The notes beneath the pieces were generated by a model, which was not told where the DNA came from, made no database searches, and was given only the letters and a program-made list of their open reading frames with translations. From the NCBI GenBank assembly GCA_000310025.1, contig FN649748.1, positions 1,662,273 to 1,686,371 on the forward strand: DNA of 24,099 nt. The letters are read 5' to 3'. Positions 1 to 24,099 of this stretch are shown here, one piece after another (the first letter of the stretch is position 1; each line of letters opens with the position of its first letter). The position numbers and the translations under genes are program-made. Origin of the DNA: Ectocarpus siliculosus. Taxonomy: Eukaryota > Sar > Phaeophyceae > Ectocarpales > Ectocarpaceae.

Positions 1-118
1 CCGGCCCGGGGGTCAAAGGTTTTAACCCCCAAAAGGCCGGGAAAAGGGGGGTTCCCCCCCCCCCCCCCGCGGGGCCCCTTTTTTTTTTTCCCCCCCCCCC
101 CCCCCCCCCCCCCCGCTC
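1..118. other. Low-quality contig edge
   Basis: The sequence is almost entirely runs of C, G, T and A homopolymers, including a C run of about 30 bases. No coding or RNA signal is visible. The far end of the window has the same texture, so I read both as unreliable consensus at contig ends, not biology. Confidence 0.7.
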
Positions 119-178
119 TCGCTCCTTGTGTCCCGAAAACTCCTGTTACCTCGTATTAAAAGGAGAACACACGAAAAG

Positions 179-357
179 CACCTTCTGCGGTGAGATCGCT
201 GACGCTTGAGACTTTCGACGCCGTGGCGATGGACCCCAGCAAGCACACTCTGGTGGAGTTCTTCGCGCCTTGGTGCACCCCGTGCAAGAAGCTCGAGCCC
301 GTCTACGAGGAGCTGGGGAGACGCTTCGAGACGGAGAGCAACGTCGTGGTGGCGAAG
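179..357 (+). CDS. Exon: N-terminal half of PDI-type thioredoxin domain, CTPC active site
   Basis: The open frame reads through beta-alpha-beta elements typical of PDI a-domains: LTLETFDAVAMD, then LVEFFAPWCTPCKKLEP, then a helix ending RRFETES. The active site is CTPC, where classical PDIs have CGHC. The donor AAG|GTACAA at 357 is phase 0. The 5' boundary is uncertain: an in-frame stop lies at 157-159, and AG acceptors end at 162 and 178. The GTG at 190 is only where an open frame could be called and is unlikely to be a start, since a signal peptide is expected upstream. Confidence 0.85.
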
Positions 358-3300
358 GTACAATTGAGCCGCGTGTTGTGAAATAGTGTACATATGCTTG
401 ATAAGGCGTTGCGATTACGGTCCCCCCCCCCGCGCGCGCGCTCACAGCAGCGGAGTGCACACGACCTGTAGAGAAACAGCAGTTATGTTCAGCGTATGCT
501 CATGGCCACCCAGCTCCCGCGGAAGTGATTACACCGGACAAGCTTCGTGTAAGTCGAGGTGGCGTGGTCTTTCAAGGAGTTTTAAAGGCTTTCGCGACCG
601 TTGACCATGTCATTTAATGTTCATGTGTCTCTTCTTCCTTCCTGGCTTCCTGGCACCACTAACCACCGCCGTGCGACAGTTTCGAAGCATCTACCTAAAC
701 CCACCCCTACACCATCGTCATAAGGTGGTCCACCTCCCCCCCAAACACACCACGACGGCGGTACGTGATGTACAGTGCATGCAGTCATGCCGCGCCCCGC
801 TTGTTATGCCCCCCTTTTCGGCGCCCCCACAACCCTCCAACGATACCTACTCCCACGGCTCCATCGCTGCTGAAACCGTTACACGGACCCCCCCGCCGAT
901 GCCGCGGTCGTAAATCACTCGTTCGCCAGGTTGATGCCACGGGGGAGCAGGACCTCAAGAAGCGGTTCGACATCACCGGGTTCCCTAGGTTAAAGTTTTT
1001 CCCAGCGGGGGGCGGCGTGGAGCCGTACAGCGGCACCCGGGACCTGGAGTCGATGGAGGAGTTCCTAAAGGAGAAGGTGCGGGGGTTGGGTGATTGGGTG
1101 AGAGGAAGGGGGGTTGGGGGTTGAATTGGCTTGTCCTGCGACTGGTTTTTCAGTTGCTGGGACTACTCTCGGTACACGGACTATCGTTGACTTGGCCGCT
1201 GAAGTCCAAGAGCAAAAATGCAAGAGTAACTCGGGCTACTCTCTACTGACGAATCCAATTTGGGGTGAACAATGGAGGTAGGCGGCGGCCCTGATAACAT
1301 GTTGATACAATATATGCAGACAGATGGTTCGCCCTCGTTCGGCATCTCTCAAATGCTCTGTGCAACAACTCTATGTATTCAAGATAAGGAGAAAAACAAA
1401 GGTTCATGGTCGGCTGAAAGCATATCAACATGTTATCAGGTGCCTTTGGCCGGCTGTTTGCTATTGTAGGTGACGTGCGAGGAAGACAATATCTTTGTTC
1501 GCTCTCACTCTCGACCTCGTCACGCTTACGGGAACGGAATGGAACTGTTCTGGTTGGCTTTTCTGGCTGCTGCTGCTGCTGCTGCTGTGTCATTTTCTTC
1601 AACTTTACTCGGAGAACGGGCACGGACAAACGCTCTACTGGTTGATACCTACAATCCAGGGGTTCTACAACTGGACTTGACAAAGTGCATCAACTCTCGT
1701 CGCCGCACGCTGGAATACCTTGGTTGAGCGTGCCCCCCCCCGTTGCCCCCAACAATGCCTGGTTTTCGACGAAAGGTGGCGTCGTCCGCCCCCAAGGTAT
1801 CGCCTCCCTCGGCGGCACAACGGTCGCCACCCCCAACAGTCAGCTCCAAGCCTGCCCCCTCTCCGTACCAAGAGTACATGGCCGCGAGGTATTTGTGTGT
1901 TGAGATGTTTATTGAGTGTCTCGTGCTGTGCTGGTCGCCCAATAGGTACCTTCCTTGTTGTGGCGAGATGAGATGCATGGTTCTGTGCATTCGAAGGCGA
2001 AAAAGCCTAGACTTTGAGCCCTAAACTGTATGTTTTGGTATGAGAGATGCCTGTGGGCATGGGTCTATCGACTTTGTATATCTCCTGAGCTTGTTTTACC
2101 TGGCGTCACGTTCTCTCGGCGGCTGGGCGCACACGTGCGGAACAAAAGCATCGAACTTTAACTTTCGCAGATTCTGTTGAAAGGTGGGTGCCATCAGGTC
2201 CATTTCACCTTTATATCTATCAATGCGTTGATTTTTTCCATGTGTTTTTCCGCTTGCTTGCAGGAAAAAACACACTGCCCAAGTCGAAGCTCCTCCTGCT
2301 CAGTGGGTTCACCGAACCGTTGTGCCAGCGGAGGAAAAGGCGGCTCCGTCTCCGTCAGTGCGAGGCGAAACTGGTTCGCTGTATGAATCCTACATGGCGT
2401 CGAGGTGAACGAAAGAGCTGTGGACGGCGATTTCGAAAAAGAAATGTTTTTTACCTACCAGGCCGCTTGGATTTTTGAACTGCTGTTAAATAGTGCTTTT
2501 TTTGTGTGTGAGGCATCCCTGTGGCCAACTGTCGAGCAAGGCTTAAGGCTTCTGGCGCGCCTGCGTGCGTGGGCCATTTTTCCTTCTTTATTCAAAGGTT
2601 GCGACCACCGACGAGAAATTCCACTTTGAGGTAGGGTCTTGAGCAAGGCTTAGTTTAGTCACTTGCACGTGTGGTGCTGCAAGGACAATGCTGTGGTTGC
2701 CTGCGTATTACACGGAGAGTGAATCCCCTTCCCGACCGCCGCCTTTTTCTTGGTCTTGGTTGCTGCATTGATTTTTGTTTTGTTGTTGTTGCAGGATTGC
2801 GAAAGAAAATGCGGCGAAGGCAGTCGAGAGCGTGAGGTTGACGACTGGGGAGCACGGGCTGTCGGAGTGCTTGGCGAGCGGAGAACCGTGAGTGGTTTGT
2901 CCGGCAACAGGCCACTGCTGAATTTTGGCCGGGTACACGGAGCACCCTGCACTTTCCAGACCATAAGGCAACGAACGTTCCGGACTCGTATGATACCACA
3001 CTATCTCACCGACTTAGAACAGGGCGATCAGACTTTCTTATTGCGCCCTTGCGAGGAAACTAGTTTGAGCCGCCTCATGCTGTGCCCCGCGTTCGGCTAA
3101 CAGCAGTTTCTGCAACGTCGCCTCTCATTTTCAGGAGCTGTGAAAATTTATTCGCCGTCTCCCCAAGAGATCCACGTGGACACGCCTGGCCAATCTCACG
3201 GACTTGTATCTCGTTTGCTCCATGGCGTCGGTTTGCTCCTCGCATTGTTCCTTGCCAAACCTCTGTTTTCATCTCCTCCTCGACTGTCTGTTTGTTTTTG

Positions 3301-6300
3301 TTGTTTTCGTGGTTTCCAGAGACCCGCCGATTGAGTGTGCCGCTCCCCCGGCCGCGGCGGCGAAGAGCGGACCTGTCGCCTCCGGCGGACTGCTGAGAAA
3401 GGTCGGTTTCGCCGCCCGAGCTTCGGTGAGAAGGGTCGCTGGTCTTGGGAGGCCCGCCTCTTCTTCTTCTTCTTCTGGCAGCTCGTCGGTGACTCCTAAC
3501 GGTGGCTCTGCAGGACAGGCATCATGCGGGGATGTGTCTCCGTACGAGCAGTACATGCGGTCGAGGTGGGTGATGTGGGGTCAAGTAGTCTTGGTTCTTG
3601 GTCATGTTTGTCGTCCACGCAACCAAAGACTGTGAAGGTTTAAATCATTATCAAAGCAACAAGAAGGAGAGATACGAGTTGAGCTTCAGCACCCCCCCCT
3701 TTCTTCCGTCACGCCATTTTTTTTCTGGTGTGAATAAAATTGGATGTTGTGTTGTGTGGTTAGGAGTCAGTCGCCGTGGTGCTTTCCCGTGGGATGGTGG
3801 GTACCCGTGACGTTGCGGAATTTCGATGAGAGGGCAAGGAGTGGTGAACCTGAGACTTGAAATGAGTCATTTGGACGCCTCTTGAGGGCCTCTTGCTTGC
3901 TATCTGCTGCTGTCTCTTCCTCGTGATTGCACCTTTTTGCGGGTTCGTGTTAATTCGTGTGTAGTCTGGATGCCGCTGTTTCCCTCGTTTTCCTTCGTTT
4001 TGCTGTGATAGTTATCTTGATAACTGTGTGGACGGGATGCCGCCGCTGTATTCCCTGCCATCTGGCTGTTTATCTGTGTTGATCGCACTCTCTGTTATTC
4101 CAGGGGGCAGTCGATGGAGTGCGGGGCTCCTGAGGAGGAGGAGAAAGAGCAGACGTCGCGCGTCGGGGGGTTGATGACAACGTTGAGACGAGCAGGGTCG
4201 GCGTTCTCTCGTCTGCTGTCTCCGGTGCTGAACTTCTTCTTGAGGAGAGATCGATCGTGAGTGACCAACCCGTTGGGGGAAGACACCATTATTGTTGGTG
4301 TTTTTGTGGGGGTCGTCTCGTACGCGTGGTTGATGTGTTGGGCAGAGTTTCACCTCGGCAACACGCCGATGATGCTAGAACCTGGGCAGGAGGGGGTGTA
4401 ATTTCGGGACGTACTTACGTACGTGCCTTTGGCGGATATGTTAACCCTCCTCGGTGTTCGATCATTTTGTTGTTTGTGAGGTTGTCTTGTCTTATTGCGT
4501 CCACTCTTGACAGAAAGTGGTGGCAGAGGGTGGGTTGAAGGAAACGAACCGATCCATGCCGGCAGCCTCTTCTCCACGATGTTGGCTACATACCTTATAG
4601 CCACCGAAGTACGATCAGCACGCCTATTCCCCAGCTCAAGTCGCTCAGCTTCACAGGTAGATTGCGTTTGACTGTTTGAGGCCTAGCTGTTTGCATTCCA
4701 TGCTTCACCCTGGTGAAGTCCTTGTCGACTCGCTTAAGCTGGGCTCAGCTCTCTCCCCCTCCTCTCGCTGTCGCTGTCTCCCTGCCTCTGTGCGTGTCTG
4801 CCTTTCTGTCTCGCCTCCCTCCGTTTTTTCAGAAAGGAGGCGTCGTGCGAGCCAGGGTGTCCGGATGTACCAGACGAGTGCAGGTGGGGATCCAGCAGCA
4901 TACAGTCGTACAAGATAGCTAATTGTTCCGCTGGTGTGCGTTACGTGCATGTCTTTCCTGCTCTGGCGTTGTTGGGGTCTTCGCTCGCTGACGTTCTCAT
5001 CTTTCTTCTTCCTCGTCTGTCCTCTATCTGTTGGGCGTGCTGCGGCGGCGGTCGAGCCCGTACGCCAGCTACATAGCGCCCAATTAAGGAGAACTCCTGG
5101 ACGCATGTTGTTGCCGTTCAGTTGCGTTTGCGATGTTCGTTTCTCCGCATTTATTAATTCCACCGTCCACCGGTGCATTTCTTGCTTGTGTTGTCCTTGT
5201 GTGTGTTTTCCAGAGAGGCTGCAACTGCTCCAGTTTCGTTGTACGAGGAGTACATGGCGGCGAGGTGGGCGAACACTGCAACGAATACGGCCTGCTTTGC
5301 ACTTGGCCGTTGCCGAGCAAAGCAAACGGAGAGAGTTTCGTTCGTAGCCTCCGTGTGTTCGATGGATGGGTTTAGCTTTGAAATCGGTGACCATGTATCG
5401 TGTACAAATAGTGTTGTTCTTCCCTTCCTAGCTTGCTGTCTTGTTATATCTTCCTGTTCCGTTGGTTTTTTTTTCGTTTTTCTGGTCACAATGGAAGCCG
5501 ATGCCGTTTTTTTTTTTCGTAGGCAAGATCCCTTGATGTACCATGCGTTAAAGCGTACGTGCCTGTGTTTCAAGTGTGCTGGGCTTCGCTTTCTTCCAGG
5601 AGTAAGAAAGACCATAACACAGGATGCGATGAACTGACATGTATGCCCGCGGTCAGCGGTCTCTCTTGCCCAACTTAGCCTCGCTTTAAAATATTTGCCT
5701 AACAAAATTCTGGATTGTTCACGCGCGCAGGGCTAAAAAAGAAGCTGCTATCCAAAAGCCTACCGCACCTCAGGCTGCCGCGCCACAAGGAAGGCAACAG
5801 GAATGCCTCTCGCCGTACGAATCATACATGGCGTCGAGGTCAGTTCACAAGTTACATTTTGCTTTTCTCGCTTCGGTTCATGTTTGATTTTAACTCAGGT
5901 GGGTGGGTGGATGGGTGAGTGAGTTAGTGCCCGCAGCAGTGTCTACGCTTTCAAGGCTGTAAGCCTCGCGCTCACGGCCTCTGTTGGTTGACGGTTCTGT
6001 TTCGCTCTGAATGATGTTGATGCTGTTTACGGCTGTCACGGCCCTATTGATCGTCTGTGCTTAACTTATCCCCCACGAGCGCAACGACCCGTATGATTGA
6101 CCACCGCTGATTATTCGGCATCACGTTTCCGCAGGAAGAGACATGCTGGATGACCTGGCTACCAGAACAACAAGTGTCGGAGGGAATATGCGCGCTTGAC
6201 CATGGGCGCGGGGATGCGCGCATCGATGATCCCGGCCCCGACTTTGGCATGTCCTGAGTCCCCACACGCTCCGGAAAATGAAACTGCTGCTAGTAGTTTT

Positions 6301-9300
6301 TCGCTCCCGAGCAACGAAGTGCCTCTTCACTCTTAGGTAGTGATTGTTGTGCGTCCCCCGATTCCGCCTCAACTGTTGTCGTTTTTTACGAGATGACTCG
6401 GCCACATTTTCTTTGGTTTGTGGAGGCTGATGTGCGTTGAAGAGAGGAACGATAATCATACTGCGGTAGTACCGTACCGTTTTTTTCACTCCAAGTAAAA
6501 CTAGGTAGTATGGTAAGAGAATCTTGTCGACACACACATGCTCCACCTCTAGACAAGAAAAGGCGTGGGAATCTTGACTTTTTTTTTTTTTGCACCACAA
6601 CTTGAGAAGAGGGGATGGTTGAGGGAAGGAAACACCTAGCGATTTCACGGAGCCCCCAGGGTGTACAGATGGTGGCGATGGGTTTCCGTGTTGCTAAGGT
6701 GTTGTGCCGGGTGGTTGTGCTCTCTTGTCTCTCTTGCTGTACATGTATTTATGTTGTGTTCGCTAGCTCGTTAGGTCAAGTGCAGCAGCTTAGAGCTAAC
6801 TGAAATCGGAAGAGGCACGCAAGGACTTGCAATTGTCCTACGTAGGGAGAGGGGGGGGGGGGGTGCTTCAGTAGGACCCAGATCGTGGGGCAAGCAAGAG
6901 GGCGAAGCTGGAGAGTGATCAATATCCCTAAAATGCTTCGAAAAGGTCTACGTTGACAAGAGATAGAGAGGCCTTAGACAAGTGCAGCATACAGACTTGG
7001 TGGTGGCTGGTGGTAGAGCTTGAGCTAGTTATAGCTGTAGAATAACGCCACCGGGGGCGGTGTTCTGTGAAGGGGTGTGTTGTGCTTCGGGGGGTGACAG
7101 GGGGGAGGGGGTCTCAACTTGGAGGGGGGCATCTACTGCTGCTGCTCTGTATCGCCGTAGATGGTATAATAGTCGTGATGATCGGTTGGGGACGATGGAC
7201 GTTGATATTGTGAGGTCTGGGGACGACTAATTATTATCTAGCAGGGATTCGTTTCGGACGCTTTGTGCCCACCGTGGGAGTTTTGACGAATGGCGCCGCA
7301 TTGCATGTGGTTGGGTTGTACGCACATCCAAGGCCGTTGGTTTCGTTGGGTGTTTTTTCATCATGCCTACTGCAGTACTAGGAGATGTTGAGGGTTGTGC
7401 CATACTGAAAGCATGGGGTCACTAACAAAGGTAACGCCAATCGTTGTACGCAATGGTGGTTCCAGGGCGAGGAATAATATAGAGCGCACGACGATGAATG
7501 AATTTGAACGAGTTGCTTTTGACCACCCAGCCCGGATATGCACCGCAGGGGGTGCCGGGAACGGATAGCGTAAGACGCAATACATTGCGGAAATTGGGTG
7601 GCTCAGGATAGCCGTGTAGGGGCAACCCATCCTCCTGTGGTCTGATGAGATCAACTACTACTTGTCTTTTGGGAAGTTGCGCGCCCGAGGGATGTTGGTA
7701 TCTGTGATGTGTGAATGTTCCATTTGGATCAAGGTCGTTGGTTGGTAGTCAGGACCATTTTTTTTGTATCGTGTCTTTTATATTATGTTTGTTTACTTGA
7801 ATGGATTTCGTGTAGCAATAGCCAACTGCGCACGCCAACATCCTTTTGTTCTCTGGGCTTTTGGGGGATCGGGGCAAAGAGTGCGTCTACAGGAACAACG
7901 TGGTGGGGTAAGGCCTTTTATTGTTGGCTTCTGTGGGCTGAAATTGGAAAATTGCGGGAGTGAACAAGATGCAAATAAAATGGTGCGGGAGCAAACAATA
8001 ATCCGTAACACTTTTGATGTGTTGTAGTGGCATCTTGTTTAGTTAGCCGCTCGTTGAACGGCAGGGAGCCGAGCTGTCCAACGGGAAGACACGGCGGCAC
8101 TCGATACAGGGATAACTGTAACTGACGATCAATCATTGCGTTGAGTGTGGCATGATGACTCGTTCGTTCTTGGCAATACCTAGAACCTTTAACAATAATT
8201 AATGTTGCCACCCCTGTCACGCAATCAAACGCTGGCTTTATACATGTAGAGTGCCATACTTACTGTATTTTTGTGTGTCGGGTACTGGACCAACTCGCTC
8301 GCTGCGTGTTGTGTGTACAGCAGTGTACAAAATGCAACAACTACGATCATGTTATTTTGCTCGCATCGTCAACAACAACAACAACAATCAATCGTCAACG
8401 CGAACCACACAATAAACACACCCCGTTGCTGTTGCTCTCTCTTGTAGTAACAACAGTGTTGCGCCATCGACCTCAAAATGATTCTACACCGGGAAGAACT
8501 AGACTATAGACTTATCAATCTTCCACCCGTCCTAGCTTTCAGAGCATCCGATCCTTTTGGGTGACCTTGGGCTATCTACTAACTGCTGTAGGGTGTGTTA
8601 CATACCTTACTTACTACAGTGCTGCACGGCTGAAAAAAAAAAAGTGTGAGAAAAAAAGCTTCCAACGGGAGAGCGGCCCCCTGTGGAAACCCCTCTGATC
8701 AGGCGGCTCATATGGCGCAAAAGGCCTCCACACCCAGCACCGGCTCTAGAGGGCGAACAAGAGGCTAAACTGTCCAGTTTTCAAAATAGTTGTGTTAACA
8801 CGATGCCAGGGCACAGCAGGGTGTGTTTTATACGTCCAGGTGCACTTGGTAGGGTGAGAAAGTTGGACTTTAGCTACAAGCGTGCCGTAGAGCCTACCGA
8901 CCAGAAGCTCCAAGATCAGGGCACGGGCTTCACACGCGAACCGACCTCTGCGCGAGGTTGGTGTCTTGCAGCCTAACTATGCTTCCGCCATTTACCTAGG
9001 TCGCATTGCCACCTAATGCAAAAGGTTTGAGACGATTTGGTGATGCAGGGGATAAGCATGGTGAGTTCAAAATTCAAATTTCAGGAGAGCCCACGCCGGG
9101 GGTTCGAACGCACGCTCTTGCATGTTGCGCGTGTGTATCCACTGGACACACGATCCCCACCCCAAGATAATACGGAAATGCCGGATACAATCACGCTAGC
9201 TCAGGGTCAGACTATCACAACGATTTTCAGAAGATCTGGGCTTCAAGAAGGCAAGTACGACTGTCTTCAAGTTCAAATTAATCTCAGTGCTTTCTTTGCC

Positions 9301-12191
9301 GTATACTATTATTATAGCCAAACATGACCCGGGGCGCTCAGCTACGTACACTCCAGACCGTGCATAGTCTATACTGTGTAGATTGAAACCCCGCAGCTTT
9401 ACAGAGTCAGGTATATATACTACAGTACGTAGTTCGACAGGTTTCAGTCGTCACGCTCTCAGGCACATAAGCATGCCCGTACGGCGGATCAGATCTTCTG
9501 CATGGCCGTCAAGAGACAATGAAGCGCCCAGACCTAGGATAGGTGTGCGGCCTGCGTATGCTGTACATATCACGTGACATTTTGTAATTTTTGTTGTTTA
9601 GTCTACTCTGGTAAGGTGTTTATATCGGCCGGCATGGATCGAGTTGCTGTTAGATGACCCGTCGGAGAGGTAGGCGGGGCAGCCCGGCTTGTGGGGGTAA
9701 CAGCCCGACATGTCAGCTGGCTACGCCACCGGCTAGGCCTCGGAACCAGCCTGGGAGCTCTGTTACACCCGGAAGCGGAGGTATGCAGCTAATATGGGAC
9801 CTTCGCCAGCTTACGGAAGGCACGCTTACCCCGGGGACTCCAGTGGTCGACCACACACAAGGAGACATCACAAGTGAACGTCCACGGGGTGGTAGCAGGA
9901 GAGAGGGCAATCTAACCAGCGAGGTGCGCACCCCCATCGCCGCGACAAAGCGCGACGTGAGAGATTCCGCTGCACGCGCCCGACGGACAGGAGGAAAGAC
10001 CCGGTCGGGAAGGAAACACAGGAGGAGGCCCTCTGTTAGGGTTGCGGGTGGCCAACCTTATCGTGAGAGCAACCTCTCGGAGGAGGATTATTGCAAGCAG
10101 CAGGGCGAGGCGAGGAGGGACGCAACGGCACGTATAGATCGCACGAATGCCGAAGATGAACGGCGACAATCGAAGTCTGGGGGGAATTACCCCGTCGATG
10201 CTCGGCGTAGAAGTCACGGCGGGAACCCCAAGACAAGCCGGTTATCAGCCAAGCAAGCGGAATGCGGGTAGTAGACTTTCTACCCCCGCGGTGCTATTTG
10301 AAAGCCAACCAATAGGCAAGAAAGTGAAAAAAGGCGTGCTGGTGGCGGGTCTACCGTGCCGCTTTGCTTCAATCTATAATCTGGTACCACAAGGTAGAAG
10401 GATAGTCTTTGACAGCAAACAACGTCCAATCAAAATCCGTTTTTTTTGCAAGCGGTCGTCGTGCGTAGTGACTGACTGACTGCACCATCATCTGTTGTGC
10501 ACAACGGCCGCCCCTTGGTCGTTCGTTGGTGGTTTCTAGGAAGGCGAAGGAGTCGGGAGGAGATGTCCCCCTGGCCGACTGCGTGGAGGAGGAGTGCTCG
10601 GCGGAGGAGGTGGAACAGGAGGCCGGTCTATTCGCGTTGTACATGGCGTCCAGGTGGTGAGTGAATGGGCCAACAAGGACAAAGAGGCAGGCGTTTCGTA
10701 TGCATACGTTTTTGTTTTCTGCAGCGTGTATGAGCTTGTACCATGTTTCTTGGTGTTGTTGTTGTTGTTGTTGCGGTCTTGTCCTTGATCGTCGACACAA
10801 GGTCCTGACCTCTCTGACGTCATGACGTCATGACGAGGGCCGTCCGTGCGAATGGATCCGACAACATGCTAAATAGGCGGTGTATACTGTCAACCAGATG
10901 GTCTCGCGTGAGACTTGTAGAGGCAGGCATGCTCGACCAACAGCACTAGGGGGGAGGCGATGCTTGCAAGGGTTGCTCTGCAGATCTTTGTAGCTTCCCT
11001 CGTAATGTCCTCTTGGGAGTCGCGACATGCACAGCTGAATCAGTTCGCCACACACACACTACACAGTACACACGAAAAGTTGGCGAGTGAGTTCCTTTTT
11101 TTTTTTTTTTCTCCCATCATTGGACTCTGTCGTCTGCCCCTCTGGCCCCTATCCTCCACTTCTACTAGCCAGACGACCTAACCGGGGTCACATAGGAGGG
11201 GGGGGGTTGGACCCCCTCCTGCGGCAAAAAACACACACACTACACACGAAAAGCTGGCGAGTGAGTGTCGCGAGGCGGTTTGTTTCACTTCACATGGGGA
11301 CAGCCCCTCGTCGTCGGTGTTCCAACGCCCCTTGAAGTGTTGAAGGTAGGCAACAACGCGGGCGCTCGCTGGGCTTTCACCGGTGTTCGAAGTCAATTTT
11401 TGGACCGCACACAGGAAAGCAAGAAGAGCCCAAAGAACGCCTTCTAACGAAGCGTGTCTTTGTTGTCCCTTTTTTGCGAAAAGATGTTCTACCTGGCATC
11501 CAATAAAAGAACAAAGATTGTTTGAGAAGCCGCGTGACTGTCGTCTTGATATCGTGGTCTTCTCTTTTTCTTTCTTCCTTGTTTGGTTGTCCAATGTTGT
11601 TGGTGGCGTTTTCCAGAGGCACGAAGGTAGAAGCCGCTCCTGGCATCGTCGTCTCCTCTTTTGATTGTTGTTTCGTGTTTGATTATACATATTGTATGCT
11701 TTCACTGATGATGATGTTTTCCAGAGGCATCAAGCAAGGTAGAAGCCGCTCCTGACATCGACTGCGAGGAAGAAGATGAGTGCACCACGGAGGAGCAGGT
11801 CTCGTACTACGACAGCTACATGGCGTCAAGGTGAGGACCAGCCTACGGTAGTCATCCCCCCCGCTTGTGGATCGTACTAAGCACGTACCACTTTGCTCAC
11901 AGGGTGGAATGCGGTAGGACACCACAATTATTTGAGGACCCCGCGTTATATGGACAAAACACCCACTTATATACAACAATGGTGCCCCGCAGAATGTAAT
12001 ACCGATGGGGAGGTACATTCTTAGGGACATGTCGTCCCTGCTGTGGTGTTTTGGCGGGGAAAATTGTACCGGTTCGTTTGCACTGCTGTGTGTGTTTCTG
12101 CTGTGCGGAGGGAGATCGTTTAATATTTTCTCTTGCTGCATCTATCCACCTTGTATTTATCTACCTTCCACCTACCGGTTTTAATGTGAAG

Positions 12192-12247
<56 letters not shown>

Positions 12248-12403
12248 AACCTACCACCAGGAAGCACGTGAAGGATGCTACCGCCGATGTGACACCGCAG
12301 GAGGCGGAGAACGTGAGCCTCTTCGACAGCTACATGTCCTCAAGGTGAGTGACAGGGTACGTTTGTATCATAGAAAGATGCTCTTTCTCTCTTTGCCTCT
12401 CTC

Positions 12404-12438
<35 letters not shown>

Positions 12439-14817
12439 TCCCCCCCCCCCTTTNNNNNNNNNNNNNNNNNNNNNNNNNNNNNNNNNNNNNNNNNNNNNNN
12501 NNNNNNNNNNNNNNNNNNNNNNNNNNNNNNNNNNNNNNNNNNNNNNNNNNNNNATGTAGTCAAATTCCTATCGTCCCATAATCGTCTCCGACTGGCGGGA
12601 GGGGGCAAACGTGAAGTGGCCGACCCGTCATGGGATGGAACCTTAATTGTAGATACCTCGGAAGGGTGTGTTCTGGAAATGTGTGCAACTTGACAACGCG
12701 TGGCGCTATGTTGTTGTCCTGTGGTATAGCTACTTTGTTGTGGTGGGCGACTCCGCGGCAGCAGCAACGGTCGGAAAATGTTGGCCTTTTGTTTTGGTTC
12801 TCGCCCAACTCTCACGGGAAATGAACAAACGTCGGTGGTTGTCGTGGGGGACGATACAGCGAAGCGACCTGCTAACCCTACAATAAATTTTGCAACAACG
12901 CCTACTTTGGGCTCACACAGGTTGCCTTACCCCAAGAAAATGTGCATGCATCCATGGACGGACACAAGTTCGCACGGCAAGGTACTTGGAAACAGGGTGT
13001 CATGCTGGAGCAACCAACCACCCCACGACACGCGCTATCCTATCTGCTTATTATGTACACTCGCGCTAGTTTCACCCCATAGTTTCCTTTTTTACCGTGG
13101 ACGGTCGTGCTTGCTTGTCTTGTTCAATCTCGGATCAACACTACATGAACACCAACACATTAAAAACAATTTGTGTTTGTCGTTGCTCTCGCCCTTGTCC
13201 TCGTGCTCGATTTCGCCCCCCCGCTTACTCTCTGGCCGTACACCACCGTATCGTGTGTTGCTGTGTCGCCGACCATGCCAACCATGTGCGTTGCCGCTCG
13301 ATGGACTACTCTCCCGCCTGCTTCTGGCCCTCTGCGACATCACCAGCCCAGCCCCACCCCGGTGAGAGAGGCTTCCCCGATCCCTGACGCTAACCCTAAA
13401 AGGACAATGCCAGTGGCTTACCCTAAGAGTCCTAGCCCCTGTCTGTCCCTAACCCTAACCCTAACCCTAACCCTAACCCTAACCCTAACCCTAGCCCTAA
13501 CCCTAGCCCTAACCCTAGCCCTAACCGCCGTCGTTTGGAACAACTGGTCGTGCATGCCACCCGTCGTCGTTGGTGAATTGAATTAATCGCTGACGCTGTT
13601 TTTCTATTTTCTGATTGCCTTGCGCCAAGATGATAATTATTGGTGTGTGCCCGAAACGTTTCTTGTCCCTACGACTTGGTTTCTGCCGTCGGGAGGCAAG
13701 AGCTGTGTCGCAAGCACCTCTTACTCAGACTACTGTGGTTGTTCTGGCATACAATGTCGAACCCGTCGGTTAGCACTGGATTCGATTCGAATTTCCCCGC
13801 TCGCCGCATCAGTATTAAATGCACTCGACCTTTGTGCGTGTCGTGCTGCTGTAATTCGGTCGAGACCCTTGAAGCTCCCGGTTTCTCGATTCGAGAAACC
13901 ACACGTGTAATTCATTCGTGGCCGTCTTGATTTGGATAGGCTGGATAGACTCATAGCACCTACTCACAAGCCCTTTTCACGTTGAACACCCCGAAGAGCC
14001 TGCTGAAAACTTATCCTCATCGTAGGTACGTGCCAGGCCGTTTCCCCCGCCCTAAAGTGTACCGAGCGCCCGCCCTGTTGATCAGCCTATTCAAAGCACG
14101 GCATGAAACAACTTGATCAATTCCATCCGTAAAAAGCAACAGGTTTCAGCATCCCTATACAGCAGTACCGGCCACTCCCGCCCTACAGAGGCCCCGCGAC
14201 TGACATGCGCCTCTTTACCCCTCCTCCGAGACTTGTGCCATGAGAGTTCTGTCGTGCATCGACGACGCCCTGCTGCCGAAATCGGCAAGAAGAACCTTCC
14301 GTTCTCGACAATAGACTACTATATTAGTGAGCAAAATTTTCTCTTTGTTGTTGACTCATGTATTGAGCAAATATTTTCTCTTTTGTCGCATGAATGAGCA
14401 ATATTTTCTCCTTGTTGTTGACTCATATGTTGAGCAATCCTTTCTCTTTGTTGTGTGTGTTTTTATTATTAGCATCGACCGCGCTGCTAACCGGCTGACC
14501 AATGAAAAAGACGTCAGTCTTAGTGCGGTTGACAACACGAAACACTTCTATCTGCCATGGACTGGGACCCCGTGAGGGGGCAGCATGGGGGAGGCTAAAC
14601 TGTGTGTGTGTGTGTATTTGTGTCCTCCTCTTGATGCCAGACGACGACGACGACGACGGGGACGTCGAGCAATACTCCTCCCGGGCACAAGGGCACAGGC
14701 GGCATGGCAGAAACCCGCGACCCCGCGCACCCGTGGACCACGAGGACCCCCCCCGCAAGTCCATCTCCGCCGCACCCTCCCTCGTTCGCGGAGTACCTCA
14801 AGTCCAAGCAGAACTAA
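179..14817 (+). CDS. PDI-like thioredoxin protein with long repeat-exon tail (multi-exon gene model, 5' partial)
   Basis: Spliced gene of about 15 exons and roughly 610 visible residues. Exons 1-2 form one thioredoxin fold of the protein disulfide isomerase type: an APWCTPC active-site segment, then a GFP cis-proline loop and a final helix. Such domains oxidise or isomerise disulfides in the secretory pathway. The remaining exons encode a Pro/Ala/Ser/Glu-rich tail with no family I recognise. Eight tail exons end in a motif like SLYESYMASR and are symmetric phase 2-2. Exon joins were chosen on GT-AG sites and phase continuity. The N-terminus, including any signal peptide, lies before the window or in the bad edge. 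The predicted end, KSKQN, is not a KDEL-type ER retention signal. Weak points are the exon at 14473, the entry frame of the last exon and the 100-N gap in the intron after 12344. The thioredoxin part is firm; the full chain is an inference. Confidence 0.72.
358..929 (+). other. Intron within the thioredoxin domain
   Basis: The 572-nt phase 0 intron runs from AAG|GTACAA to TTCGCCAG|GTTGATG. It contains CA- and C-rich stretches and no supported exon. Splicing it out joins NVVVAK directly to VDATGEQ, as in the strand-loop-helix of PDI domains, which strongly supports both borders. Confidence 0.8.
930..1076 (+). CDS. Exon: C-terminal half of thioredoxin domain with cis-Pro loop
   Basis: Forty-nine codons, phase 0 at both ends. 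It begins VDATGEQDLKKRFDI and contains ITGFPRLKFFP, where the Pro after GF is the conserved cis-proline facing the active site. It continues with YSGTRDLESMEEFLKEK, the usual last helix of a PDI a-type domain. It completes a single thioredoxin fold of about 105 residues with the preceding exon. No second CxxC domain follows in the gene. Confidence 0.85.
1077..1775 (+). other. Intron with fold-back repeat and short CTG run
   Basis: The 699-nt phase 0 intron lies between the thioredoxin domain and the tail. It holds a perfect 18-bp inverted repeat (1290-1307 and 1423-1440) and a CTG-type trinucleotide run near 1565-1588. Short open frames here lack splice or family support. Confidence 0.65.
1290..1440. 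repeat. Fold-back element with 18-bp inverted arms
   Basis: The arm CCTGATAACATGTTGATA at 1290-1307 is exactly reverse-complemented at 1423-1440, with a 115-bp spacer. Flanks and inner ends show weaker complementarity. It could be an old MITE or another hairpin insertion. No clear target-site duplication is visible. Confidence 0.6.
1776..1888 (+). CDS. Tail exon 1: Pro/Ser-rich linker ending PSPYQEYMAA(R)
   Basis: Enters in phase 0 after GACGAAAG and leaves in phase 2 at GCGAG|GTATTT. It encodes 37 residues rich in Ser, Pro and Ala, ending with the first copy of the YM motif. It therefore converts the gene from phase 0 introns (thioredoxin part) to phase 2 introns (tail). Confidence 0.75.
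2264..2404 (+). CDS. Tail exon 2: symmetric 2-2 exon ending GSLYESYMAS(R)
   Basis: The acceptor is TTGCTTGCAG and the donor TCGAG|GTGAAC. Length 141 nt (1+138+2) keeps phase 2. The encoded 46 residues start KKHTAQVEAPP, run through an Ala/Pro/Glu-rich linker and end with the clearest motif copy, SLYESYMASR. The frame is fixed by the previous exon and has no stop. Confidence 0.82.
2795..2887 (+). CDS. Tail exon 3: symmetric 2-2 exon with degenerate motif
   Basis: The strong acceptor TTGTTGTTGCAG and donor CC|GTGAGT bound 93 nt (1+90+2). The open frame reads IAKENAAKAVESV and ends GLSECLASGE, which may be a worn copy of the YM motif (LASG against MASR). Phase supports it; the lack of a clean motif lowers confidence. 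Confidence 0.6.
3135..3230 (+). pseudogene. Probable decayed copy of a tail exon
   Basis: After the acceptor ATTTTCAG there are 96 nt (a 2-2 length) ending ...TCCATGGCGTCG|GTTTGC. The DNA resembles the motif end TACATGGCGTCGAGG, but in the frame required by the neighbouring exons ATG-GCG-TCG is not read in frame. The AG before the donor is lost. Joining 2887 directly to 3320 keeps phase 2, so this copy can be skipped. Confidence 0.45.
3320..3565 (+). CDS. Tail exon 4: longest symmetric exon, ending VSPYEQYMRS(R)
   Basis: Acceptor GGTTTCCAG, donor TCGAG|GTGGGT, length 246 nt (1+243+2), 81 residues. It starts DPPIECAAPPAAA. The middle carries a basic, hydrophobic segment (GGLLRKVGFAARASVRRV) that could form an amphipathic helix, followed by a Ser run (SSSSSSGSSS). 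The end is SPYEQYMRSR, a good motif copy. Confidence 0.82.
4104..4256 (+). CDS. Tail exon 5: acidic then basic amphipathic segment, no YM motif
   Basis: Acceptor GTTATTCCAG, donor GATCGATC|GTGAGT, 153 nt (1+150+2). The 50 residues begin with an acidic stretch (CGAPEEEEKEQ) and end with a basic amphipathic stretch (LRRAGSAFSRLLSPVLNFFL), then RRDRS. It resembles the basic helix of tail exon 4 but lacks the Tyr-Met ending. Splice sites and phase are good. Confidence 0.68.
4833..4883 (+). CDS. Tail exon 6: 51-nt micro-exon with three cysteines
   Basis: The acceptor CCGTTTTTTCAG and donor TGCAG|GTGGGG enclose 51 nt (1+48+2). It encodes KEASCEPGCPDVPDEC and then a split Arg. Three Cys in 16 residues are notable in a protein with a disulfide-exchange domain. 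There is no YM motif. The same length is found in the next exon, which does carry the motif. Confidence 0.6.
5214..5264 (+). CDS. Tail exon 7: minimal motif exon, EAATAPVSLYEEYMAA(R)
   Basis: Acceptor TGTTTTCCAG and donor GCGAG|GTGGGC bound 51 nt (1+48+2). This is almost the bare motif: a six-residue linker followed by SLYEEYMAAR. It defines the smallest repeating unit of the tail. Confidence 0.82.
5731..5838 (+). CDS. Tail exon 8: Ala/Gln-rich linker ending LSPYESYMAS(R)
   Basis: Acceptor GCGCGCAG, donor TCGAG|GTCAGT, 108 nt (1+105+2). The exon starts AKKEAAIQKPTAP, runs through Ala/Gln-rich sequence and ends with a canonical motif copy. The next supported exon is 4.7 kb away. Confidence 0.8.
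5839..10539 (+). other. 4.7-kb intron with low-complexity sequence and an unassigned ORF
   Basis: No copy of the tail motif with splice sites was found here. The interval holds homopolymer runs (T near 6580, G near 6850), a CAA run near 8378, a tRNA-like box pair on the minus strand (9102-9151) and an Arg-rich ORF (9654-10271). A TTTCCGCAG at 6126-6134 looks like an acceptor, but the phase 2 frame after it stops within six codons. The large size relative to the other introns suggests inserted DNA. I could not delimit an element. Confidence 0.5.
9654..10271 (+). CDS. Hypothetical Arg-rich ORF inside the large intron
   Basis: A 205-codon uninterrupted frame with an ATG start. It is strongly basic and hydrophilic, with an Arg/Gly/Ser/Pro-rich N-terminal half and a second half carrying a charged segment (EEDYCKQQGEARRDATARID). 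I recognise no domain. It is the longest uninterrupted ATG frame in the window and has no visible splice context. It might be the remnant of a mobile-element protein (Gag/ORF1-like proteins are often basic), or chance in GC-rich DNA. No zinc knuckle, protease or reverse-transcriptase motif is visible. Confidence 0.28.
   Translation: MTRRRGRRGSPACGGNSPTCQLATPPARPRNQPGSSVTPGSGGMQLIWDLRQLTEGTLTPGTPVVDHTQGDITSERPRGGSRREGNLTSEVRTPIAATKRDVRDSAARARRTGGKTRSGRKHRRRPSVRVAGGQPYRESNLSEEDYCKQQGEARRDATARIDRTNAEDERRQSKSGGNYPVDARRRSHGGNPKTSRLSAKQAECG
10540..10653 (+). CDS. Tail exon 9: acidic linker ending AGLFALYMAS(R)
   Basis: Acceptor GGTTTCTAG, donor TCCAG|GTGGTG, 114 nt (1+111+2). The linker is acidic with two cysteines (PLADCVEEECSAEEVEQE), and the motif copy is GLFALYMASR. 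A second donor three bases downstream (GTG|GTGAGT) fits the splice consensus better and keeps phase 2, so the last residue may be followed by one extra codon. Confidence 0.78.
10654..11616 (+). other. Intron with twin palindromic TGACGTCA and a direct repeat
   Basis: It contains two abutting TGACGTCA octamers (10815-10830), a T run near 11096-11110, and a CA-rich direct repeat at 11049-11092 and 11231-11266 that shares CACGAAAAG(T/C)TGGCGAGTGAGT. No exon is supported. Confidence 0.6.
10815..10830. promoter_or_regulatory. Two adjacent TGACGTCA palindromes
   Basis: TGACGTCA at 10815-10822 is immediately repeated at 10823-10830, followed by TGACG. TGACGTCA is the classical full site bound by CREB/ATF-type bZIP proteins. 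The match is exact, but the intronic location and lack of other promoter signals leave its role unknown. Confidence 0.3.
11608..11760 (+). repeat. Direct duplication of an acceptor plus exon start
   Basis: GTTTTCCAGAGGCA...AAGGTAGAAGCCGCTCCTG occurs at 11608-11648 and again at 11716-11760. The second copy carries a 4-base CAAG insertion, which would break the phase 2 frame from its TTTTCCAG acceptor. See the exon at 11735 for the resulting splicing alternatives. Confidence 0.75.
11735..11830 (+). CDS. Tail exon 10: acidic linker ending SYYDSYMAS(R)
   Basis: The 3' part is secure: frame KVEAAPDIDCEEEDEC, then SYYDSYMAS with donor TCAAG|GTGAGG. The 5' border is ambiguous because the exon start is duplicated upstream. 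One model uses ATCAAG|C at 11735 (phase 2 in). The other uses a 10-nt micro-exon at 11617-11626 (phase 2 in, phase 0 out at AAG|GTAGAA) joined to 11739. Both keep the frame. The acidic Cys-containing linker resembles that of tail exon 9. Confidence 0.72.
11831..12260 (+). other. Intron with long CAA microsatellite
   Basis: A 430-nt intron with an uninterrupted CAA run of about 55 bases (12192-12246) just before the CCACCAG acceptor. Nothing else was seen in it. Confidence 0.7.
12261..12344 (+). CDS. Tail exon 11: linker ending VSLFDSYMSS(R)
   Basis: Acceptor CTACCACCAG, donor TCAAG|GTGAGT, 84 nt (1+81+2). The linker begins KHVKDATADVTPQEAEN and the motif copy is SLFDSYMSSR. This is the last clean motif exon before the sequence gap. 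Confidence 0.82.
12454..12553. other. Assembly gap (100 N)
   Basis: Exactly 100 Ns follow a CT microsatellite and a C run. This is the usual placeholder for a gap of unknown size, so the distance and any exon content here are unknown. Confidence 0.97.
13447..13526. repeat. Interstitial CCCTAA/TTAGGG telomere-like array
   Basis: About 13 hexamers. The first seven or so are perfect CCCTAA, and later ones alternate CCCTAG with CCCTAA. Isolated units also occur just upstream (near 13391 and 13421). TTAGGG is a common eukaryotic telomere unit. Here it lies inside a gene, with coding exons on both sides. Confidence 0.9.
14328..14460 (+). repeat. Four-unit TGAGCA tandem repeat
   Basis: Units begin TGAGCAA and run TTTTCTC(C/T)TTGTTG. 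They start at 14328, 14364, 14395 and 14431, with lengths of about 36, 31, 36 and 30. Units 1 and 3 contain TGACTCA. The last unit runs into the T-rich tract before the acceptor at 14472. Confidence 0.8.
14473..14571 (+). CDS. Tentative tail exon 12 (2-2 phase, no YM motif)
   Basis: The acceptor TTTTTATTATTAG and donor ACCCC|GTGAGG bound 99 nt (1+96+2) with an open phase 2 frame that begins IDRAANRLTNEKDVSLS. It lacks the motif, and its composition is less Pro/Ala-rich than the other tail exons. Splice sites and length are consistent with a tail exon, but chance is possible. Confidence 0.42.
14641..14817 (+). CDS. Terminal exon ending PSFAEYLKSKQN-stop
   Basis: After the acceptor TTGATGCCAG there is a Thr/Pro-rich segment (PPASPSPPHPPSFAEYLKSK), then QN and TAA at 14815-14817. 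SFAEYLKSK matches the spacing of the tail motif (acidic, Tyr, Leu/Met, Ser, basic), so I take this frame as real and the stop as the protein end. It needs phase 0 entry at 14641. A phase 2 entry would require an internal acceptor such as ACCACGAG|G near 14740. The entry point is unresolved. Confidence 0.55.
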   Translation, partial: TTTTTTGTSSNTPPGHKGTGGMAETRDPAHPWTTRTPPASPSPPHPPSFAEYLKSKQN

Positions 14818-14885
14818 ATAGTGGGAGAATATTCCCAATTTGCCATAGGAACCGTAGAGAGAGGCAGCCATCGTCGTGAGACCGG

Positions 14886-15020
14886 AGCTTCGCGGAGCAT
14901 GCATGCCTCAAGTCCAAGGAAAACCGGAGGCAGGCCTCGGAAGCAAGCGTGGAGTCAGGCGAGGGCATGGCAGAGAGCTCTATCTACCAGATCGCCGCCG
15001 GTTATAGGAGGCTGCCTGGC
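14886..15020 (+). pseudogene. Second copy of the terminal-exon motif, past the stop
   Basis: SFAEHACLKSKEN is encoded at 14886-14924. It matches SFAEYLKSKQN of the terminal exon, with identical DNA in TTCGCGGAG and CTCAAGTCCAAG. The copy lacks the stop and stays open through a Ser/Glu-rich stretch, then IYQIAAGYRR. An in-frame TGA lies at 14877-14879. It may be a dead duplicate or an alternative last exon. Confidence 0.4.
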
Positions 15021-15500: not shown

Positions 15501-17535
15501 TCTTCTGGTTCGAGGCCTTTCTTTCCGATGGACGAGTGGTCTAATGTCTATACAGTAGCTTGGGCACGATGCCGCCTGCCTCTCTTTGTGTACTCTTCCA
15601 ACACCTACACCTTGGAGCAGTCAAGTTTTCGATGCAATTGCTTTTTTGGTGCTGGAGGACACGGTTGGTTGTCGGCAGATGGGGGTGCGCTTGCCATCAT
15701 GTTTGATTCGGGTGGGTGTTGGCAAATAAATGTGTTTGCTCCACTGTAAACATGTCGGAGTTGTTTTGTGGGCAAGGGCATCGGGAGATTCGACTTGGTT
15801 CGCATGGGGGCAGGGAGGGGGGAGGGGGGGGCTTGCGGAGATTTTTTCACCCACTTGGGTATACCTTGTGGTGGTGATAGACCAATGAGAGGGCACTCGG
15901 AGGGAGTATTATTAGATCATAACCGACGCCGCGTCAATCCTTTCGTTGACACTCAATTTTTTCGCGTATGCATTCTCCTTGCGTCTGGTGTACGTTCGTT
16001 CGCTCCTGTCGTATCGGATACATGCTTCCGTCTGTGGCATATGTTTGCTGCATGCCCTCGCCGTCATGGTGCCGCCATCTTTGCCGCAAGCAGTCCACAC
16101 GCCGAATCCGAGATTTTCTCACAACACTATCAAATCATTCGAGGATCAACAACCAATCAACTTCGAGAGTTCGACCCATGATCGATCATCGGCATCCTCA
16201 TTGTAGGTTACTCTCATTCATCTCGTTGGCGTTCGTTCTGAGGGTTGGGGTGTTCGATCGCTATCACGAGGACGAGCGAGCCGCAAGTGTCACCCACTGC
16301 TGCATGCATAGAACGTTTCATTGTAGCAGCCAACTAACTCCCACACGGACGGGTGATTGGCCTATAGCGTCGCCGTCCAAGAAACTTGCCGCACCAGAAA
16401 TGACGAAAAAACACCACGTATGAGAGAAAGAGGACGGAACGAAGTGAACACGTCAAAGATAGATCCTGAAATTTTCCTTTTGTTCCTTTCGGCTGCTTTC
16501 TTTTTGCCAAGAAAAAAAAAACAAGTCCAACCCCCAGAGCCATGCACAAGTTTCACAAAAAATATTATTTTCTCTGGCCCTATTGTATCTGTCGAGTTGC
16601 TGTTATCTATTATCCCAAACCTCCCACCCCCTGGGTTCAAGCACCAACACTTTGTAACCGTTGCAAGACAAAATGGACACACTCGATTTTTTGTTTTTTT
16701 TGTATGTACCCGAGCGGTGACTACTTCAGATGGTGCCCTCGACCCCAACCGACCCGCGTCTACTATTATCCTAGGACCTGCACCCAAAACATGATGGTGC
16801 CGCGTCTATCATCCCAACATATTATATATAGTACCAACATCCCAAGCATTAAGAAAGGGCTAACACCATAGAGGCAAAAAGGGGATGCCGATCGATCGAT
16901 CCCGGTGTGGCGTACACATGCACGGACGGACGTGAGGGTACAAAGCCGCTACTTTCCTCCGCGCTCCCAGTCAAGAATGACGACGCAAAAAAATAAAAGC
17001 TACCAACAATAATAAAAAAAACTTATTTCTCTTCGCTATGTACAGCGGTCGTCTTTCCTACATACGTAGATAGATTGATAGATGGATAGATCGATCGATT
17101 GCGCTGGTCCGTTTCCGCCTCTCAACACAAGCAGAGCAAGACGGAAGACTGCCTCCGAGAAGGCGCACGGCACGTTAACCCACACTCCAAACATCCTTAC
17201 ACACGGCAGCAACAAACTCTGTTTTTCGGAATGGCCGGGGCTCTTAGACCTCTGCAGAGCCCCCCTCGTCGTTCTTGGCTCCCAAACGTGCAACAACTTC
17301 CAAGCATCACGTAGCCAAGCGACTCCCTCACCGTGCCTATCAAGACTGCGACCCCCGAAATGTAAGGATCGCAGAAAAAAACACTTTGTATCTCTACTGG
17401 GATTGTGGCAAAGCACCCAGAAATGACTAATTATTTACTCCACAAAGTTCGGAAACTCTGCGTTCTCGTTTTTCGTCCTTCGAAGCCGACAGCCGCAGCA
17501 AGAGTGTTTTTCCTCGCCTCTACGACGGGGAACAC

Positions 17536-17759
17536 GATCTCCCAAAGATCAATCATGATCTCCGAAAGGTCAACCATGATCTCCGAAATCAATCCTGATC
17601 TCCGAAAGATCAATCATGATCTCCAAAATATCAACCATGATCTCCGAAATCAATCATGATCTCCGAAAGATCAATCATTATTTCCGAAATATCAACCATG
17701 ATGTCCGAAATCAATCATGATCTCCGAAAGATCAATCATGATCTCCGAAATATCAACCA
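17536..17759. repeat. Higher-order minisatellite (61-bp period of 21+21+19 subunits)
   Basis: Eleven subunits of the form GATCTCCGAAAGATCAATCAT alternate in the order 21, 21, 19 bp. Full 61-bp blocks start at 17536, 17597 and 17658, and a partial block starts at 17719. The 19-bp subunit lacks two bases of the 21-mer. The array reads open in several frames only because the unit lacks stops; 61 is not a multiple of three. Confidence 0.92.
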
Positions 17760-18601
17760 AGGTCTCCCCACGAACCCTCCTAAAGGGACAGCTTCAGCCG
17801 CTATCCGATTACAGTCACGAGAGCAATATCGCTGTTCTTCTAGACACTACATATTGTATATCTCTGCAGAACCATCATGAACAAACACGCTACAGGTTTG
17901 AGATGACTGAGGTCGAACGAACGACCGCACCACCGGCCGTGATCCAATAGCTGCCCGCACCCCACAGATGGACGCTGCACAACATCCTCTTCACGGCTAC
18001 AGCAGTAGCTTGCACGCCGACCGTTGTCCAAGGTAGGAGCTCAGAGCTCAGCCCACCACGCCTCGGAGCTGACTACAACACCCTCACGCACCAATATTTT
18101 TACCTGAATCAGAAACACAACACGACGCCACCTGCTCCAGAGTTGACTCCCATCTCTACAGGAAACAAGACAACGTCTCTCGGGGTTTACAGGGGGGCAC
18201 AGCTTTCTTTCCCCTGCTGAAACACTAGTACTCGTATTCAAAGTATTCCAACAATAGTCACTTCTCAACCAGGCACAACGCTTTCCTCCCACTTTCAGCC
18301 GGAGGCACAAGGGGTACGTCAACAGCAGTGGTTCCGGGGACTGCCTTTGCAAGGATATTATTGTTATATAGTCTATCCAGTATAGAGGGGGGTTTCGTAT
18401 CCCTAACCCCTGACCCTACCCCCCCCTCCCTACTAAAACAAAGACTAATATTTTCGCGAAGGCTAATGGGCTCCGGGGGGGGGGGGGGGACAAACATCAA
18501 CAACTTTTTGGCGGGGGGTCCCCCCCATGCAAAACCCCCTTTTGCCCCATCACCCCATCGAAAAACAAAAATAGTCCAGTGGAGCGGAATGGGAACACGG
18601 T

Positions 18602-23790
<5,189 letters not shown>

Positions 23791-24099
23791 CTGGAAATGT
23801 TGATCGGCTCCGCTGGTGGGGTCGCGAAGGGGGGGGGGGGGGGGGGGTACGTTTTGCATGCCTTAGCGGTATAGCCATTGACCACGCGTCCCTTGAGAGG
23901 ATGGTGCATTATTCCCGCAGGACCAATCGCTCCTTCCTACTTTCCCCAAAGGGGGTCAAAAATTTTTTTCCCAACCCACCCATCCCACGGGGGGGGGGGG
24001 GGGGGGGGACCCTAATTTGGGGGGCCGGAAACCTTTTTACCTTTTCCCCCCCCCCCCCAAAAAACCGGGGGGGGAACCCCGGGGTTTTCCCGGGAACGG
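23791..24099. other. Upstream intron fragment and low-quality contig edge
   Basis: It contains a G run at about 23829-23847. From about 23936 onward the sequence is almost only homopolymer runs, mirroring the start of the window. No gene can be read; the 5' exons of the CREST-like gene are missing. Confidence 0.65.

Follow-up and report, generated by a model that had tools for sequence, protein, structure and literature searches.

Exons of the window

The window, a stretch of 24,099 nucleotides from contig C23 of the brown alga Ectocarpus siliculosus, holds on its plus strand two exons of a thioredoxin domain, an array of short exons most of which end in copies of one motif, and a C-terminal cap exon. 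The model of this tail has 12 exons: eight end in the motif, three lack it (2795-2887, 4104-4256 and 4833-4883) and one is the cap. The exons are listed below, with start and end phases of the array exons.

163..357, plus strand: thioredoxin exon 1 (PDI a′-type, WCTPC), 67% identity to the PDI exon on contig C16, inferred acceptor
930..1076, plus strand: thioredoxin exon 2, ends in phase 0 (AAG/GTGCGG), 57% identity to C16
1776..1888, plus strand: tail exon W1, phase 0 to 2, ends SPYQEYMAAR
2264..2404, plus strand: tail exon W2, phase 2-2, ends GSLYESYMASR
2795..2887, plus strand: tail exon W3a, phase 2-2, without motif
3320..3565, plus strand: tail exon W3b, phase 2-2, ends VSPYEQYMRSR
4104..4256, plus strand: tail exon W4a, phase 2-2, without motif; acidic, then a basic/hydrophobic stretch
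4833..4883, plus strand: tail exon W4b, phase 2-2, Cys-rich, without motif
5214..5264, plus strand: tail exon W4c, phase 2-2, ends VSLYEEYMAAR
5731..5838, plus strand: tail exon W5, phase 2-2, ends LSPYESYMASR
10540..10653, plus strand: tail exon W6, phase 2-2, acidic Cys linker, ends AGLFALYMASR; counterpart of exon X7 on contig C483
11735..11830, plus strand: tail exon W7, phase 2-2, ends VSYYDSYMASR; acceptor uncertain; counterpart of X8
12261..12344, plus strand: tail exon W8, phase 2-2, ends VSLFDSYMSSR; counterpart of X9
14641..14817, plus strand: C-terminal cap exon beginning in phase 0 and ending PPSFAEYLKSKQN-stop; compared with its relatives, the frame shifts and returns

All eight motif exon ends reported in the initial annotation are found at their places on the plus strand, where a GT donor directly behind each of them divides an Arg codon (AG/GT), and the terminal exon, described there as ending SFAEYLKSK, reads SFAEYLKSKQN-stop. 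The motif exons and their ends are real; the exon count, the acceptor of W7 and a missing exon needed correction, and the linkage to thioredoxin is a candidate one. Joined at GT-AG borders, the 11 exons from 1776 to 12344 form a single stop-free frame of 416 codons, in which the motifs are spaced 28-113 residues apart. The start of W1 is in phase 0; all borders that follow, through W8, are in phase 2. Since this regularity makes the exons symmetric, single tail exons could be duplicated or lost without breaking the frame.

The motif and its splice donor were searched genome-wide with a strict DNA pattern, TWY-N6-TAY-ATG-NNN-KCN-AGGT. The 189-Mb genome (492 contigs) has 16 exact matches: eight in the window, three on C483 and five that lie singly elsewhere, so that the pattern clusters only in the window and on C483; the reversed control pattern matched twice. 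A looser pattern gave 45 matches genome-wide against 33 for its control, adding one on C483 and none in the window. With AYG allowed for ATG, positions 1100-14900 of the window (Ns dropped) have eight matches on the plus strand and none on the minus strand, against a mean of 0.001 and a maximum of 1 in 2000 first-order Markov sequences.

Three places in the model are irregular. The acceptor of W7 (11735-11830) is not obvious: use of the AG that corresponds to the canonical one in the paralogue leads into a stop. The last exon starts in phase 0 and W8 ends in phase 2, so one exon is unaccounted for, as it is on C483; a search for a phase 2-to-0 exon, confined to certain donor types and to pyrimidine-rich acceptors, gave three candidates on C483 and one in the window, none of them matching between the two. 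In the cap, insertions and deletions relative to two relatives shift the frame and restore it, with the conserved RKSISAAPS lost and FAEYLKSKQN kept.

Other features of the window were recorded along the way. The start of W7 is partly duplicated at 11613-11760, with a spacing of 108 bases between the copies (11613 and 11721). Between W5 and W6, the 4.7-kb intron contains an open frame of 205 codons (9654-10271) with much Arg, Gly and Thr, perhaps part of a mobile element; it has no Pfam match at E up to 1. A telomere-type CCCTAA/CCCTAG array lies at about 13447-13524, within the last intron of the tail gene. Farther downstream are an imperfect tandem repeat seen by eye at 17520-17760 and based on GATCTCCGAAA-ATCAATCAT, a tRNA-Pro (TGG) gene at 19902-19974 in an AT-rich patch that is possibly an organelle-derived insert, and, on the minus strand of 18600-23900, exon-like frames that read as a multi-pass membrane protein; joined, these last pieces have no Pfam match above cut-off (best CPP1-like, E 0.24). 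Elsewhere in the genome, all 150 scored places for the EsV-1-7 family (of 880 candidates) pass the cut-off, and none of 14 control genomes gives a hit; passages of PMC7457493 describe this family as expanded in brown algae.

Relatives of the tail in the genome

On its minus strand, C483 carries nine serial motif exons with the same phase 2 borders, in an open frame of 281 codons with motifs 23-43 residues apart. A third tail gene lies on the same contig and strand as the window, about 15 kb upstream of W1 with an assembly gap included; it has one motif-like exon (SFTEMLREK), a long Pro/Ala-rich exon and the common cap, and it contains a single KKWEPR. Their coordinates are:

C483:404594-404734, minus strand: cap exon, following the nine motif exons
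C23:1643261-1648746, same strand as the window: third tail gene

The two relatives share the cap GTGGMADTRDP..RKSISAAPSFAEYLKSK, and in both the first motif exon starts in phase 0, as W1 does. Used as a query against the whole genome, the C483 tail hit 11 places at E up to 10: six on C483, four in the window and one in the upstream gene.

Clear exon counterparts between window and C483 are the pairs W6-X7, W7-X8 and W8-X9. Within C483, X4 resembles X10, and X3 resembles both X9 and X10. Comparison of linkers over 171 pairs, with 500 shuffles each, left six pairs at the shuffle floor (1 in 501), one of which joins the first motif exons of the two relatives (X2 of C483 and U3 of the upstream gene). 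These resemblances among linkers suggest duplication of exon blocks. We are inclined, if only slightly, to see the window tail as one member of a family with three genes found in the E. siliculosus genome, a view that we hold jointly with the scaffold reading given below.

The initial annotation had proposed selection on the motif over the linkers, which the paralogues do not bear out: in the three alignable exon pairs (the other eight window exons, X2-X6 and X10 lack a clear counterpart), motif codons have dN 0.305 (27 codons) and linker codons dN 0.301 (65), an equal divergence. For the same paralogous modules, 3 of the 11 window exons, dN/dS is about 0.23 at dS 1.29. Acidic linkers with paired cysteines are conserved between the paralogues as well, with DCVEEEC in W6/X7 and CEEEDEC and CEDEEEC in W7/X8, so selection acts beyond the motif. 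These linkers may be redox or metal sites.

It is unlikely, in our estimate, that the window copy is a decaying duplicate or an artefact of assembly. The compensated frame shift in the cap and the odd acceptor of W7 would fit such an origin, as would the gap of 100 Ns within the gene (12454-12553) and the large gap upstream. Set against these are the 11 exons that retain splice sites and frame, the low dN/dS of the three exons just given, and a copy on C483 of the same design. The exon array is real, and its family matches nothing in the libraries searched. The tail has no Pfam match above cut-off; GP40, HVO_2248, FAM192A and LZ_Tnp_IS66 fall below it at E 0.036-0.18. In the PDB, phmmer matched neither the cap nor the third relative. 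A 105-residue query had 10 pattern matches in IMG/VR and 326 in GTDB, with none confirmed in either, and no paper was found by searching literature text for the motif or cap peptides. A profile of 19 motif copies brought up five PPR repeat proteins in the PDB (whole-sequence E of 4e-11 for four and 0.025 for one). We rejected these because no single stretch passes, and we take the scores for noise summed over designed repeats.

Presequences, thioredoxin exons and the start of the tail gene

Both relatives open with two exons that end in phase 0 and that, by inspection and simple counts, encode a signal peptide, a Phe and a region free of acidic residues. The presequences read MMNGQVKSCLTAVIMLLAAAIRADG followed by FVCPTGR.. 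and MTMSGRTRSCLSAVIMLLAAAMQTEA followed by FVAGPV..; each has a hydrophobic core, the Phe and then, within 20 residues, no D/E and two R/K. A signal peptide with Phe and such a transit region is described in passages of PMC4329603 as the plastid presequence of algae with red secondary plastids. Judged from these N-termini, which resemble those of ochrophyte plastid proteins, the proteins of the tail family are probably targeted to the plastid.

In the relatives, 2.6 and about 3.2 kb separate exon 2 from the first motif exon downstream of it (on C483 exon 2 would end at a GC donor, not GT), and the equivalent position in the window falls inside the N gap. This gap lies directly upstream of the window (C23:1652099-1662272, 10,174 Ns), and by eye the first ~115 bases of the window resemble the end of a contig. 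Neither exon 1 nor exon 2 of the relatives finds a homologue in the window (best E 2.6 and 5.3). Over window positions 1-1790, the sole listed signal-peptide-like frame with Phe at the cleavage place starts at ATG 1539; we rejected it as a presequence, for it lies in a GCT repeat, is not homologous to the exons of the relatives and by eye has a poor phase-0 donor. A presequence search of the whole genome, taken to E 10, gave seven matches; three belong to the upstream relative, and the others are weak (E 0.95-6.9). The search missed C483, where a local tblastn found the exons (E 5.8e-6 and 0.11), and the absence of further matches therefore means little.

The joined thioredoxin exons match PF00085 (E 7.4e-27), with the WCxxC site present as WCTPC, and their nearest solved chains are PDI and its relatives. 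One thioredoxin domain is seen in the window, with the N gap upstream of it. The domain most resembles the second of the two thioredoxin domains in a PDI on C16 and has its intron at the same position; this a′ domain of C16 has phase-0 introns on both flanks and is followed by an ERp29c-like exon, for which the window has no match better than E 1.4. Not all PDIs possess an ERp29c-like domain. The position homologous to the C16 acceptor is not AG at thioredoxin exon 1. Over 102 codons, dN is 0.25, dS 0.97 and dN/dS about 0.26, values that suggest long constraint on the window thioredoxin. The window has thioredoxin exons, intron position and phase in common with the ER-type PDI of C16 (two thioredoxin domains and an ERp29c-like end), and differs from it in its one domain, in WCTPC for WCGHC, in the lack of an ERp29c-like exon and in the array of motif exons downstream.

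The initial annotation had taken the thioredoxin domain as the defining part of the tail protein. That part of the interpretation is not supported, the relatives having a plastid-type presequence and no thioredoxin in the stretches read; the serial exons, the short motif and the docking-site reading are. Whole-genome search gave nine thioredoxin matches, none of them on C483. No thioredoxin was found in 40 kb around the C483 tail (best E 0.074, not thioredoxin-like) or in 50 kb around the upstream relative on C23, and the motif expression has no match in a stretch of 40 kb around the C16 paralogue. It is not safe to give the window tail gene a thioredoxin label, and the tail so appears to mark a plastid-type repeat family rather than a PDI family.

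Because the gap cuts off the thioredoxin exons and the 5′ end, fusion and separate genes are both possible. The thioredoxin pair could be spliced to W1, since W1 shares its phase-0 start with the first motif exon of the relatives. One protein, with the thioredoxin exons spliced into W1 and either plastid presequence exons in the gap or a PDI-type N-terminus, is an arrangement that we rate a little below an even chance; such a gene may be a chimera that joins a plastid presequence to thioredoxin and tail. The phase 0 end of thioredoxin exon 2 agrees with the start of W1, but phase 0 is common and its agreement is weak evidence. Shuffling is permitted by the phase-0 flanks of the C16 a′ domain and by the second intron of both tail relatives, which is phase 0 on both sides; yet neither relative has a thioredoxin nearby. 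The absence of a subsequent ERp29c-like exon, and evolution of the domain under constraint, speak for fusion. On the other side, the tail gene could begin separately at an in-frame ATG (1755) or with the signal-peptide-like frame from ATG 1539, reading through past thioredoxin exon 2 meets a stop after 15 codons that could be an end of its own, and the acceptor of thioredoxin exon 1 is not conserved.

The other arrangement, which we regard as evenly balanced between true and false, has two neighbours: a truncated PDI-like gene or pseudogene at the edge of the gap and, apart from it, a tail gene with presequence exons that either fall in the gap or have been replaced. It accords with tail relatives that have a presequence of their own and no thioredoxin close by, and with a window thioredoxin that lacks the C-terminal exon of its PDI relative and adjoins low-quality sequence and the long run of Ns. 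The failure to find a presequence homologue in the window is neutral here, the expected place being the gap. Presequence exons in the gap would, however, put the thioredoxin exons inside an intron of the tail gene on the same strand. In terms of mechanism, PDI-like thioredoxin exons would have been shuffled into the phase-0 second intron of the window copy to give a redox-active variant, or would belong to a separate truncated PDI gene. If fused, the gene would be a clear stramenopile case of domain capture through exon shuffling.

The motif and pyrenoid linkers

The motif has the consensus S-[LP]-[YF]-[ED]-x-Y-M-x-S-R, with eight copies in the window and nine on C483. Over 19 copies (these plus one from the third gene and one from the cap), numbered from the aromatic residue, S occurs at -2 in 15, E/D at +1 in 13, Y at +3 in 18, M at +4 in 14 and R/K at +7 in 18; the copies were picked by their aromatic and Tyr/Met core, that is, by an aromatic residue three places ahead of Tyr or Met. 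This spacing would suit a helix, with S-x-x-E as its capping box and then a turn and a half that brings Y, Y, M and R to the same side. Each motif would accordingly read as a short amphipathic helix, with Y/F, Y, M and R at i, i+3, i+4 and i+7, and each such helix would dock on one partner. Disorder-promoting residues make up 64-68% of the tails. The charge-hydropathy test across the two tails is equivocal: the window tail (0.436 against a boundary of 0.424) falls slightly on the ordered side, and the C483 tail (0.425 against 0.440) on the disordered side.

The proposal in the initial annotation that the serial motif exons provide repeated docking sites is still their best reading, the tail having neither a Pfam family that passes the cut-off nor a PDB match that was accepted, and multivalent docking is the likely service of the repeats. 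With so many copies, the protein could serve in the plastid stroma as a multivalent scaffold or as a condensate linker, much as Rubisco linkers do in pyrenoids. On balance we favour, by a narrow preference over its opposite, a three-gene family of motif helices on variable and largely disordered linkers that would act as a multivalent plastid scaffold or condensate linker.

Rubisco as the partner is a guess made by analogy. There is about an even chance that the motif docks elsewhere (thylakoid, plastid division or import machinery) or is a modification site, and that the protein is another kind of plastid scaffold. In favour of this reading, Tyr, Ser and Arg in the motif are residues that might carry modifications, and the tail has no relative in Pfam above cut-off and no accepted one in the PDB. 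What counts against it is a pyrenoid-linker architecture, with a plastid-type presequence on the relatives and motifs 23-113 residues apart, which is a matter of resemblance alone. The fullest version, in which a family of Rubisco-condensate or pyrenoid linkers would have arisen by exon repetition and one member would have captured a PDI thioredoxin through phase-0 shuffling, coupling a redox domain to the linker, we consider quite improbable.

EPYC1 and CsLinker carry short repeated motifs on disordered linkers, and their motif differs from that of the tail; a sequence relation of the tail family to them is not known. Both are linkers of the green lineage, and passages of a 2026 review (PMC13159521) describe them as pyrenoid linkers without sequence in common with PYCO1. 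The same passages state that the pyrenoid linkers of separate lineages have no common sequence and that a few brown algae have pyrenoids; according to passages of PMC8260720, pyrenoids are present in Ectocarpales. Among the titles and abstracts listed from the open-licence literature, none was of a brown-algal pyrenoid linker.

A close comparison is with the red-type pyrenoid linker PYCO1 of Phaeodactylum. Passages of PMC10288592 present it as a disordered protein with repeats that belongs to a plastid condensate and uses short helical stickers for both subunits of Rubisco. The KWSP and GTGYNP motifs of PYCO1 are absent from the window and C483 tails. Scored with the motif profile, the large-subunit peptides AAEWGSMNQ and ASEWASMNT of PYCO1 reach chance probabilities of 0.008 and 0.076 against random 9-mers, and 0.022 and 0.106 against permutations, in an alignment chosen after the fact; the similarity of the tail motif to these sticker peptides is weak, a lead and no more. 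What the tail family has in common with PYCO1 is a repeated short motif on low-complexity linkers and, on two relatives, a plastid-type presequence, and its three genes form a short candidate list for the pyrenoid linker of brown algae.
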